DNA of 9,697 nt from Alphaproteobacteria bacterium UBA6347. GTDB taxonomy: Bacteria > Pseudomonadota > Alphaproteobacteria > CAAGCB01 > CAG-977. The notes beneath the pieces were generated by a model, which had not been told where the DNA came from, did no database searches, and saw nothing but the letters and a program-made list of their open reading frames with translations. The DNA lies in contig DJRZ01000006.1 of NCBI GenBank assembly GCA_002440235.1, forward strand, positions 60,171 to 69,867, written 5' to 3'. The translations under genes were made by a program, and so were the position numbers. Below are positions 1 through 2,462 of this stretch, in pieces. Numbering within the stretch: position 1 is the first letter of the stretch; the number at the start of each line of letters is the position of its first letter.

Positions 1-26
1 CCGTTATTACAATTACCGCCGCGAAG
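1..26 (-). repeat. DGR template repeat (TR), 5' part only, cut by window edge
   Basis: Seen in sequence: read on the minus strand from 26 to 1, this matches the fibre gene from 281 to 256 without gaps. All 20 columns that are not A in this copy are identical. Of six A columns, five differ (A to G, A to C, A to G, A to G, A to C) and one is retained. The match stops at 27/282 with non-A differences, which sets the 5' boundary. In the frame of the fibre the copy reads L-R-G-G-N-C-N-N-G, with AAT, AAT and AAC codons, as is typical of DGR templates. Known: in DGRs the TR RNA is copied by an error-prone reverse transcriptase that misincorporates opposite adenines, and the cDNA replaces the VR. Inferred: about 95 more TR bases, then the reverse transcriptase gene, lie left of position 1. 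The full TR length and the RT cannot be seen. Confidence 0.92.
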
Positions 27-71
27 AGAAACCCGACGGCTCCGACGTCGCCCTTCCGGTCCCGAAAGTTT

Positions 72-98
72 TTTATAGAAAATTCACCCCGAAATCAA
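72..98 (-). promoter_or_regulatory. possible sigma70-type promoter for the TR transcript
   Basis: On the minus strand TTGATT (98-93) is followed after 15 bases by TATAAA (77-72), resembling -35 and -10 boxes. A start about 7 bases further on would put the TR some 40 nt into the transcript. The -10 match is good, the -35 match moderate, and the spacing is shorter than the usual 17. The position, between the fibre gene and the TR, is where a separate promoter for TR and RT would make sense. AT-rich intergenic DNA can produce such matches by chance. Confidence 0.3.
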
Positions 99-108
99 AT
101 TTATTTTC

Positions 109-123
109 AAAGCCTTCGGCTTT
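109..123 (-). other. 6-bp inverted repeat with triloop between VR gene and TR
   Basis: AAAGCC (109-114) and GGCTTT (118-123) are perfect inverted repeats around a 3-base loop, GAA on the minus strand. The hairpin lies 39 bases past the fibre stop. It is followed on the minus strand by an A-rich stretch, not a T run, so it is not a textbook intrinsic terminator for the leftward operon. It may belong to the DGR cis-acting structure, end the late transcript weakly, or structure the 5' leader of the TR RNA. The sequence alone does not decide. Confidence 0.5.
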
Positions 124-126
124 AAA

Positions 127-152
127 CAGGGGGGAGGTAGTGTTCCCCCCTG
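127..152 (-). other. G/C-rich 8-bp hairpin just after the VR gene stop; candidate DGR homing hairpin or terminator
   Basis: CAGGGGGG (127-134) and CCCCCCTG (145-152) form a perfect 8-bp stem around a 10-base loop. A further C6 run at 155-160 could pair with the same G run in place of the proximal arm. The hairpin starts 9 bases past the fibre stop codon. Known: the Bordetella phage BPP-1 DGR needs a GC-rich hairpin/cruciform with an 8-bp stem a few bases downstream of the VR for efficient target recognition. The position and stem length here fit such an element, although the BPP-1 loop is only 4 nt. No T run follows directly on the minus strand, which weakens the terminator reading. Confidence 0.55.
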
Positions 153-161
153 TACCCCCCT

Positions 162-281
162 TTAAGAGTTTCTATAAGAGAGCGAAGCGCCGAAGTCCCA
201 ATGCGCAGCGGCAGGGAGTACGTTCACGGTGAACGCGAACGCGCCGCACAGCGCACCGGCATCACAAGCACCGCCGCGAAG
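162..281 (-). repeat. DGR variable repeat (VR) in the 3' end of the fibre gene
   Basis: The 5' boundary at 281 is set by the match to the template copy at 1-26. Only 256-281 can be verified because the template leaves the window; extension to about the stop codon is inferred from the usual VR size (about 100-130 bp) and position. The region encodes residues 728-766, beginning L-R-G-G-A-C-D-A-G. Against the template, residues 732, 734 and 735 differ from Asn through changes at the first or second codon bases, while Cys733 (TGT, no adenine) and LRGG are fixed. The next blocks, GAF at 740-742 and a W..GA.LS pattern at 755-762, resemble the C-terminal ends of DGR targets with a C-type-lectin fold. 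The coding strand is adenine-poor here (7 A in the first 105 bases), as expected after adenine-directed mutagenesis. Confidence 0.88.
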
Positions 282-2462
282 CAGCATTCTTGTCCCCGTC
301 CTTGCCGACCAATGACCGTCGGCGTAAAAGGTCGTGGAAGACCCTGCCGCCTTTGCCACCAGAAAGCCGTATTTTCCGGCGTGGACGCGGGAAATGTACG
401 CCGCGCTGTAATCCCCCTCCGTCGTCAGTCCTGTGTTGATGTAGCCTATCCCCGTGCGGTTGTAGCCCGTCGTGGTCGAACCGTCCGCCGTTGAACGCGT
501 CATCTTGACGTGGTAAATGCCCTCTATCAGCAAAACTCCGTTCGGTCGCCGCCAGCGGTTGCCCCACCAGTTCTCCATGCCGAAAACCTTGACGCATTGG
601 TTGTTGGTGTTTGAACCCCAGAACATACCCTTTTGATTGCCCGACCCCGTCGGCAGAAACGCCGCCGCGCTTGTCCCGCCGTTGATGTTGCCGTTGCCCA
701 GCGCCGCTTGGCTGTCCGTGTTCTCGAACATCAAAACGAACAACGCCGTGATTAAATCCTCGTCCGCCCAAACCGTCGTCGTCCAGCCCGCGCCGTTCGC
801 TTCGGCATACGCGGCTTCTTGGTCGGCGGTCGAACCGGATTGCGCGACGGCGTTCAGCGACAGCGAACGCATGACGTTGTCAACCAGATTACCCTCGTAA
901 ATCGGCGTGTAGAAATGCTCGGCGTAAGTGCCGTCCGATTTGAGCGTCGAAAAACACTCGAACCCGCTGTCCTGCTTGACGTTGGAAAAGAAAACGTAGA
1001 TGCGGTTTCTGTCGCGGTACTTCTTCATAAAGACCGTGTTCCATTCCATCATCGCGTTGCCGTCAAAGGCGGAGTTCGCAACGTCCGACGCCGTCCCGTC
1101 CGCTTTTTTTCCGTAATCGTTCGGGTCAAGGTAATACGCGACTTCCCCGCTTCGTTTCAGCATGCACGGACGCGGCAAAAACGGCGCGTTCCGCCAATCG
1201 CCCCATTCAAAGCGGTTGTTCTCGAAATCCATATAGGCGCGTTCGTAAAAATAATTGTCGCACCCTTCGATTTTGTGAACGCGCGTCGATGTAACGGGTG
1301 CGGCTTCGTCAATGTAATAGCCGTACACCCACACGCCGAAACAGTTGCGCTTGTCCAAACAATAAACGCCGTTGACGCTGCGCGGAAACGCCCGATACTT
1401 CCACGCCGCCGCGTTTTCCTGCGTATCCGTCAGCGCGTCGTCCAAATGGCTGTCGCGGTCGGTAACCGTCGCCACAATCACGCCGTCGTCAATGTCTTCG
1501 GGATACGCGCCTTGTTTCTTGACAATGACCGTCGCGTCCCACGACGCGATGACATAGCCGTCGATGATGGTGTCCCGCGGATCTTTCCACCACAGACGAA
1601 CCGTCCGCCCGTCTGCGTCAATGCTGATTCTTTTCTGCTCGATAATGCTCATGGGGATTCCTTCGCTCCTTACCCGTTCGGCGTACGCCGCCGCTTTCAA
1701 TTCCGATTGTTTGGCTTCCGTCTGACTGGCGGCGCTCTGCTGCTGACTTGCCAAAGCCGCCGATGCCGACGCGCTCGCCGCCGCCGCTTGGTTCGGTGCG
1801 TCTTTAATCGCCGCAATCTCCGCCGCGCATAAAACAACGTCGTTCACCGCGTCAGATACGGTTTTGACGGCTTCAATGCTTCCGCTGACGGTCTGAACGG
1901 CGCCGATGTTGTTTGCCGCCGTTTTGATGACGCCGATATTTTCAGCGTCCGTCTTGATGTCGGACAAATTATCTGCCAACAAATCCAGATTGTCTTTGTC
2001 GGCGTAAAGCGTTTCCACTTTGTCAACCAATTCTGCGGGGTCGGTGTCTGAAAAGACATCAACGGTCACGGCGCGGTTTGCTTGTTCCTGCAACTGCTGG
2101 CACAACATTGTCGCCTTGTCCAAATTGTGTTCCAGCGTGTCGGCGGGAAACGCGTTGTAATTCTGATAATCGCTGCTCTGTCGGTAATCGTATTCACGGT
2201 ACACAATCAGCGAATATGCGCTTGTTCTTTTATCCGCGACCGTAACCGTTCCGCCCGTTCCGTCGTCGTTCAGTTTAACGGTGTAATCCGTTCCGTACGT
2301 CAATTCCGTTTTATTGACGCCGTCGGAAATGGAAACTTTGATTGCCTGTTTGGCGGCTTCCTCCGTCGGGTCTTTTGTTAAGCAATGGAAAAAAAAGTCA
2401 TAGGTGTTTGTCGCGCCCATGACCATTTTTTGCGTTTTGCTGACTTGGCTTTCAACTGTCAT
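162..2462 (-). CDS. phage tail fibre / receptor-binding protein, DGR target, with T7 gp17-like N-terminus
   Basis: This is the probable host-recognition fibre, assembled on the tail. Residues 1-136 resemble the N-terminal anchor of T7 gp17-type fibres, with the late YREYDYRQ, AFPADTLEHNLDK and LQEQANRAV pattern. Residues 140-222 have spaced hydrophobic residues and NI repeats like a trimeric coiled coil. Residues 224-265 are Ala/Ser/Gln-rich and hinge-like. Residues 274-385 contain a WWKDPRDT...GYVIASWDAT...YPEDIDDG pattern resembling Fn3-like modules of phage adhesins. The part from about 430 to 766 looks like a C-type-lectin/FGE-like domain (GMENWWGNRWRRPNG, then LRGG) whose last 39 codons are the DGR variable repeat. 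The ATG overlaps the upstream stop as ATGA and has GGAGGT 6 bases upstream, so the start is secure. The gene is last in the late operon and next to the DGR template. Family assignments are from recognised patterns, not a search; the exact receptor is unknown. Confidence 0.92.
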   Translation of the reverse strand: MTVESQVSKTQKMVMGATNTYDFFFHCLTKDPTEEAAKQAIKVSISDGVNKTELTYGTDYTVKLNDDGTGGTVTVADKRTSAYSLIVYREYDYRQSSDYQNYNAFPADTLEHNLDKATMLCQQLQEQANRAVTVDVFSDTDPAELVDKVETLYADKDNLDLLADNLSDIKTDAENIGVIKTAANNIGAVQTVSGSIEAVKTVSDAVNDVVLCAAEIAAIKDAPNQAAAASASASAALASQQQSAASQTEAKQSELKAAAYAERVRSEGIPMSIIEQKRISIDADGRTVRLWWKDPRDTIIDGYVIASWDATVIVKKQGAYPEDIDDGVIVATVTDRDSHLDDALTDTQENAAAWKYRAFPRSVNGVYCLDKRNCFGVWVYGYYIDEAAPVTSTRVHKIEGCDNYFYERAYMDFENNRFEWGDWRNAPFLPRPCMLKRSGEVAYYLDPNDYGKKADGTASDVANSAFDGNAMMEWNTVFMKKYRDRNRIYVFFSNVKQDSGFECFSTLKSDGTYAEHFYTPIYEGNLVDNVMRSLSLNAVAQSGSTADQEAAYAEANGAGWTTTVWADEDLITALFVLMFENTDSQAALGNGNINGGTSAAAFLPTGSGNQKGMFWGSNTNNQCVKVFGMENWWGNRWRRPNGVLLIEGIYHVKMTRSTADGSTTTGYNRTGIGYINTGLTTEGDYSAAYISRVHAGKYGFLVAKAAGSSTTFYADGHWSARTGTRMLLRGGACDAGALCGAFAFTVNVLPAAAHWDFGASLSYRNS

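Follow-up and report, generated by a model that had tools for sequence, protein, structure and literature searches.

Part of a diversity-generating retroelement at the end of a phage tail-fibre gene, from a branch that appears to lack Avd and has a conserved spacer RNA

Introduction

The mechanism literature on diversity-generating retroelements (DGRs) that we considered rests on phage BPP-1, in which the accessory protein Avd is essential. The BPP-1 element consists of mtd, avd, a template repeat (TR), and brt; its variable repeat (VR) is at the 3' end of the tail gene and TR lies downstream on the same strand. One report states that BPP-1 needs a hairpin or cruciform after VR (PMC3240598). 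Another describes a spacer that folds and recruits the reverse transcriptase (RT) together with Avd, with a spacer adenine priming cDNA at the 3' end of TR, and gives a repair frequency of about 1e-9 for reconstituted BPP-1 in which Avd was inactivated (PMC12875486).

The majority of known DGRs encode Avd, according to PMC10053308, and phage DGRs without detectable Avd are already in print. In PMC5883640, Avd homologs are reported only in Mushu and Lagaffe among Faecalibacterium prophages, and another small protein is suggested for the Avd-less DGRs of these prophages. The use of a DGR by a phage on its fibre is known biology. In our judgement, the new part of the analysis below is a branch of DGRs that appears to lack Avd and has a conserved spacer RNA of its own.

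Results

Template and variable repeats at the fibre gene

We analyzed a stretch of 9,697 nucleotides (the window) from the contig DJRZ01000006.1 of Alphaproteobacteria bacterium UBA6347. The features relevant here are as follows.

1..26, minus strand: first 26 bases (5' end) of TR, matching exactly the beginning of the full-length TR of contigs L001 and L002; the remainder lies past the window edge
27..179, minus strand: gap between VR and TR, 153 bases
126..153, minus strand: inverted repeat with a 10-bp stem and an 8-base loop, 3' of VR and of the fibre stop codon
180..281, minus strand: VR, 102 bases, fibre codons 728-761, ungapped alignment to TR
162..2462, minus strand: tail-fibre gene, 766 aa, with an N-terminal anchor (about residues 1-225) and a C-terminal tip, the part apparently diversified by the DGR
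1862..1863, no strand: border of the cassette shared with L001 and L002, 96.9% identity from here to base 1 (blastn, sliding identity)

The preliminary description of this DNA had proposed an adenine-specific TR/VR pair from two 26-base copies, at 1-26 and 256-281. These copies do align without gaps. Read on the minus strand, five of the six adenines of the edge copy are changed at 256-281 and the 20 other positions are all identical; given five mismatches in the 26-base pair, the probability that all of them fall on the six adenines is 9.1e-5. As originally described, the template has the codons AAT/AAT/AAC and lies downstream of the fibre gene on the same strand, and VR is at the 3' end of that gene (codons 728-761 of 766). 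The strand shared by TR and the gene is the minus strand.

A 37-base pattern from the window edge matched two IMG/VR contigs, L001 and L002, which also ranked first among the 63 loci in a search with the fibre protein. They are 96.9% identical to the window across window bases 1-1862 and 99.1% identical to each other over 5.9 kb. The complete TR starts at 2092 in L001 and at 3511 in L002; the two TRs are identical over 110 bases, and both are identical to the 26 TR bases in the window. The adenine bias held when the full TR was aligned and mismatches were tabulated by base. In ungapped alignments of 102 bases, the window VR was changed at 14 of 21 adenines and 2 of 81 other bases (Fisher p 2e-10), the L001 VR at 8 of 21 and 1 of 81, and the L002 VR at 14 of 21 and 0 of 81. 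None of the 169 codon variants that can be reached by substituting TR adenines is a stop codon.

The 3' end of VR resembles the IMH/IMH* anatomy, with a constant end, a fixed difference just beyond the repeat (TR A103 is T in the VRs of the window, L001, and L002), and the 10-bp inverted repeat 26 bases after VR. This inverted repeat occupies the place of the BPP-1 target hairpin or cruciform, as the latter is described in PMC3240598. Stems of at least 7 bp after VR were found in 36 of 80 loci not labelled Avd-positive, versus 2.5% of mononucleotide shuffles. On the sequences alone, the repeat at the window edge and the 3' end of the fibre gene can be recognized as part of a DGR.

The reverse transcriptase and comparison with BPP-1

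The preliminary description anticipated a DGR-type RT downstream, and there is one directly 3' of TR in L001 and L002, the contigs that match the end of the window. The RT begins 138 bases past TR in both contigs and is followed by small ORFs and a phage lysozyme. It matches the PHROG 1423 reverse transcriptase family (E 2e-83) and RVT_1 (E 1e-14). Because the window ends inside TR, before any RT, we infer an RT for its phage from these 96.9% identical contigs. In L001, there is a stop at codon 4 of the RT frame (2332-2343), and L002 is open at the same place, so one of the contigs may carry a damaged or shorter RT. A later TTG in L001 could start a 363-aa product.

The arrangement is similar to that of BPP-1 in several respects. 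The BPP-1 spacer between TR and RT is 144 bases, close to the 138 found here, and in both cases RT, small ORFs, and an endolysin follow. The RTs of BPP-1, L001, and L002 are all in PHROG 1423, and there is a hairpin after VR in both systems. The solved chain nearest the RT is 8ub7 (named 'Reverse transcriptase', 328 aa), which, judging by its length, is presumably the BPP-1 enzyme. There are also differences. The BPP-1 arrangement with avd between VR and TR was not found here: there was no match to the Pfam bAvd model in L001 or L002, and the 153-base gap is too short for an avd gene, which has 387 bases in BPP-1. The RT is in another branch, and the BPP-1 spacer does not match the RNA model of the Avd-less branch described below. 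In addition, the fibre in the window fuses an N-terminal part similar to Bbp9 (29%, residues 43-196) to the variable tip; in BPP-1, Mtd and Bbp9 are encoded separately.

Variation among near-identical fibres

The first 14 of 308 protein matches include 13 of 766 aa (P0001-P0012 and P0014), and these were compared with one another. P0001 is the window's own protein, and P0013 (756 aa) was left out because of its length. All 13 full-length fibres, the window included, have distinct VRs. The mean pairwise difference was 71% at the 11 adenine codons, 0.7% at the 23 other VR codons, and 3.3% elsewhere, so that, as had been predicted, relatives vary at the codons with template adenines. P0002 differs from the window at 8 of the 11 adenine codons and at none of the 755 other residues. 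Because the two differ solely at adenine codons, the rewriting appears to be recent in the window's lineage, and we take the 13-fibre comparison as strong evidence for recent template-directed rewriting, with P0002 pointing to recent DGR activity. The VRs of L001 and L002 differ at 13 of 21 TR-adenine sites, compared to 8 differences in the 1200 bases of fibre sequence just upstream.

A modular fibre with a portable tip

The fibre matched two tail-protein profiles, phrog_5302 over residues 379-764 (E 8e-78) and phrog_1640 over residues 1-132. The family phrog_5302 is the basis for predicting that the tip binds a receptor. No Pfam C-type-lectin or FGE match was found among 33 tip sequences, and a PDB sequence-profile search with the tip matched no solved structure.

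The fibre common to the window and L001/L002 starts at about nucleotide 600 and is 97-100% identical in most 60-base steps, with lower identity close to the border and within VR. Upstream of the border at 1862..1863, the DNA match between the window and these contigs is weak or absent. In P0016 and P0020, the window's tip is on two other N-terminal types, that of P0020 being the type found in L002. In P0066 (100%) and P0067 (96%), window residues 1-225 are joined to other ends. The same DGR tip is joined to three or more N-terminal anchors, and the window's anchor to two or more other ends; the border falls at about residues 200-225. By these protein comparisons the fibre is modular, its tip evidently swapped between anchors. 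We rejected an assembly chimera at the junction of tip and anchor, as 12 other 766-aa entries share the architecture and each half is found with other partners in further proteins.

Among the viral fibre relatives, 26 of 63 have no RT in the DNA examined, in some cases because the contig ends. A small tail gene is kept in 13 of these 26, directly 3' of the fibre in those inspected. Because this gene stays beside the fibre where there is no RT, TR and RT behave as a cassette placed between the fibre and the small gene.

Several individual loci merit description. In L044 (3560-4060), a fibre relative is accompanied by an RT fragment and a TR match of 29 bases, apparently a decayed DGR. In L058 (4158-9381), an RT and the spacer RNA lie upstream of the fibre match, which itself contains a 207-base repeat pair with 10 mismatches at bases other than A. 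The fibre relative P0052 (51%) is from an organism named Alphaproteobacteria bacterium. A 1775-aa gene in the window has only distant relatives (<60% identity) in named phages and none in a pattern scan of IMG/VR.

TR/VR pairs across RT loci

There were 124 RT-bearing loci, 119 of which had enough upstream DNA to test. An A-type TR/VR pair was found upstream of the RT in 101 of the 119; there was no pair in the other 18, several of which are cut close to the RT. Differences from TR fell at 1510 of 2625 adenines versus 47 of 8165 other bases (five groups, 99 of the 101 pairs), where the scoring punishes mismatches at other bases and therefore biases this count, like those of all the multi-locus pair searches, low. 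The unbiased counts are those from the 102-base alignments of the window, L001, and L002. As a control, mismatches at C, G, or T were allowed instead of A at the same threshold, yielding 5, 25, and 11 of the 101 pairs, respectively. The G cases presumably reflect an exchange of roles between TR and VR, because both repeats were in the search region. The gap between VR and TR was 62-268 bases in 73 of 78 Avd-less loci (402, 469, 691, 1345, and 1867 in the other five) and 407-531 bases in 21 Avd-positive loci.

A conserved RNA between TR and RT

The spacers between TR and RT of Avd-less loci have sequence and structure in common. We aligned 50 of 63 non-redundant spacers with MAFFT, leaving out 13 that were mostly longer. 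Three stems comprise 18 pairs. The first joins the 3' end of TR to the bases immediately preceding the RT start, the second is a short hairpin, and the third, which is longer, encloses an invariant GTA. In these stems, 91.5% of the cells are paired, compared to 73.0% in shuffles, and there are 139 double changes, compared to 39.2; neither value was reached in any of 500 shuffles. Slid versions of the stems pair at no more than 45.9%. The weakest measure, the number of pairs with any double change, was 14 versus 10.9 and was reached by 2 of 500 shuffles. The spacer is a conserved, covarying RNA.

A covariance model built from 28 spacers of the fibre family, with L001, L002, and L013 held out, matched both L001 and L002 across the end of TR and the spacer (42 bits, E 4e-5). 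Using E values up to 0.1 and Avd-less loci with at least 150 bases upstream of the RT, we found the RNA in 91 of 96 Avd-less RT loci; of the 68 that had not been used for training, 63 matched. The matches in L096, L130, and L132, which count among the 91, are weaker than E 0.001. The model matched none of 23 Avd-positive loci, nor BPP-1, nor any of 34 loci without a full RT, among them L044 with its RT fragment. Lagaffe, Mushu, VP58.5, and ACA1, which are annotated with Avd, gave nothing below E 3, and there was no match in Epona, for which no Avd homolog was reported (PMC5883640). Rfam 15 gave nothing at the L001 and L002 spacers with E up to 1, and five weak matches elsewhere. A literature search that left most subscription journals outside its reach found no report of a shared spacer RNA, which is weak evidence for novelty.

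Avd and the RT tree

We searched for Avd with the Pfam bAvd model, which detected the BPP-1 Avd as a positive control (E 2e-37). No match over the cut-off was found in 37 IMG/VR records (36 of the fibre family, including L001 and L002, plus L086) or in the complete phages Arawn and LBR48; the search of the 37 records gave a single 18-bit match, distant from the DGR, in a 244-kb contig. In a nearer RT set, 2 of 47 IMG/VR records matched (L133 and L135), both on the Avd-positive side of the RT tree. Among the 25 most distant RT records (L136-L160), 21 matched; of the four missed, two are truncated at the RT (L137 and L140) and two have the spacer RNA (L145 and L150). PF05635, a second Avd-like family, was found in 0 of 39, but the controls were silent too, making the result uninformative. 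The HRDC accessory domain was found in none of 43 records, with control genomes positive. At least 1500 bases upstream and 1000 bases downstream of the RT were present in 71 of 101 Avd-less loci, the contigs being mostly fragments.

In an RT tree of 123 rows (quick search, SH-aLRT only), a single branch with support 99 separates all 24 Avd-positive rows, BPP-1 among them, from all 99 Avd-less rows, including L001 and L002. There are eight long end branches (among them BPP-1 and the basal L134), and for this reason details of the tree are unsure. RT phylogeny, VR-TR spacing, presence of Avd, and the spacer RNA split the sampled DGRs along nearly the same line, and the RT branch of DGRs like that at the window appears to lack Avd. 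The RT of L002 has the motif IGFYTSP, which ends in TSP at a place where the majority of the set has TSQ. Among the 99 Avd-less rows, TSP occurs in 3 and TSH in 14; SQ occurs in 24 of 24 Avd-positive rows. A motif count for a C-terminal RT extension (17 of 71 Avd-less, 0 of 11 Avd-positive) was too noisy for use.

An ORF of 90-110 aa follows the RT in 35 of 37 viral loci with an RT, and we considered it as a replacement for Avd. We rejected it because 13 of the 26 viral loci that have no RT also contain it after the fibre, so that it goes with the fibre rather than with the DGR. In L001 (3473-3742) and L002 (4892-5158), the small protein after the RT is phrog_20201, conserved in the fibre family with or without a DGR. 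In many relatives it is followed by a short ORF that presumably resembles XkdX, of which one is annotated in Epona.

Avd-less DGRs in named phages

The Butyrivibrio phage Arawn (complete genome) has a relative of the fibre (34.5%) and of the RT (33%) in gp17/gp18, with no Avd found. It has an A-type TR/VR pair (differences at 9 of 24 adenines versus 0 of 87 other bases) and the same spacer RNA (E 7e-6). It differs in having a tape-measure gene and other genes upstream and is thus a different type of phage, in which relatedness was seen for the tip and RT cassette only. The Lactobacillus phage LBR48, a complete record without Avd, has an RT in the same Avd-less branch and the spacer RNA (E 5e-9), but its RT is 821 bases from the start of the record and no TR/VR pair was found there. 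The Faecalibacterium phage FP_Epona has the same order of tail protein, RT, small ORF, and XkdX, but no match to the spacer RNA model and a tip that is only 28% similar. Its DGR is published without a detected Avd homolog (PMC5883640).

Discussion

The window very probably ends in a DGR whose RT, seen in relatives, would copy TR with adenine errors into the 3' end of the fibre gene and so vary a predicted receptor-binding tip. That the phage rewrites its own predicted tip was the central suggestion of the preliminary description, and it is supported by the TR/VR counts, the RT in L001 and L002, and the variation at adenine codons. In this process, the RT of the cassette, which probably adjoins the window, would copy TR with random errors at adenines; the mutated copy would be written into the 3' end of the tail-fibre gene, and the predicted tip would vary as a result. 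The window's own phage would carry an intact RT, and the changed tip would bind a host receptor.

Two other accounts of the repeats are far less probable. It is extremely improbable that they are simply a gene duplication that later diverged by drift or by selection on surface residues. Changes at bases other than A do exist (2 of 81), but set against 14 of 21 at adenines (Fisher p 2e-10), with the same asymmetry in two more VRs and a conserved RT and TR-RT order, they leave such an origin little room, and the comparison of the 13 fibres contradicts it as well. The DGR might instead have decayed, with TR and VR as remnants, the RT lost or broken in the window's phage, and VR frozen. The RT does lie beyond the window, the L001 frame has its early stop, no RT was seen in the DNA examined for 26 of the 63 viral relatives of the fibre (in some because the contig ends), and L044 retains only pieces. 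We consider decay very unlikely, given that P0002 departs from the window at 8 of the 11 adenine codons but nowhere among the 755 other residues, and that L001, L002, and the 26 bases in the window agree in TR although their VRs differ.

How such DGRs work is less certain. We tentatively suggest, with slightly less than even odds, that this phage DGR branch is an Avd-free machine of RT and template RNA in which the spacer RNA serves in docking and priming and the tip-TR-RT cassette is portable between anchors. The RNA would consist of a helix closing the 3' end of TR against the RT start, a short hairpin, and the covarying stem around the invariant GUA. By analogy with BPP-1, it would dock the RT and position the 3' end of TR for priming; because the closing stem uses bases at the very end of TR, it would keep the site of priming next to the folded spacer. 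The RT of the Avd-less branch would bind this RNA directly, making Avd unnecessary. The unmatched Epona and the 5 of 96 Avd-less loci that miss the RNA are points against this picture. An ordinary DGR with an undetected Avd, either a divergent accessory protein elsewhere in the phage or one supplied by the host or a co-resident DGR, is a real if somewhat doubtful possibility. Avd proteins are small, most contigs are fragments, absence is read from one Pfam model, and another small protein has been suggested for such phages (PMC5883640). Moreover, in three of 14 host MAGs of fibre relatives, other contigs carry an Avd-like match under the cut-off and RT-like matches beside it, so that Avd could act in trans there. 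Against this, 21 of the 25 most distant records do give an Avd match with this one model, the four exceptions being cut at the RT (L137, L140) or carrying the spacer RNA of the Avd-less group (L145, L150), and its 2 of 47 matches in the nearer set (L133, L135) are both on the Avd-positive side of the tree. The complete phages Arawn and LBR48 have no Avd, and 73 of 78 Avd-less loci have only 62-268 bases between VR and TR, versus 407-531 in 21 Avd-positive ones. The one small gene found to be conserved next to the RT is also present after the fibre in 13 of the 26 viral loci that have no RT.

If the Avd-free reading is true, a branch that needs only RT and RNA would provide a minimal system in which to ask what role Avd plays. 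The question is testable, because complete named phages, Arawn (Butyrivibrio fibrisolvens) and LBR48 (Lactobacillus), carry the Avd-less type.

Some further observations concern the surrounding genomes. The three host MAGs with Avd-like and RT-like matches (L192, L193, and L194 from G114, G118, and G116, respectively) also hold an Avd-less fibre DGR, and the RT-like match in L194 is short. The near-identity of L001 and L002 ends at L001 5868 and L002 7283, just after a sequence like the 3' end of a tRNA and a terminator, and the flanks differ. ARAGORN called no tRNA at this point, which is likely a prophage attachment site. The upstream gene of L002 matched its own contig only. The L002 flank has an FGE-sulfatase gene and an ORF that, judged by eye, is transporter-like; the flank gene has named relatives in several phyla, at about 57-61% identity.
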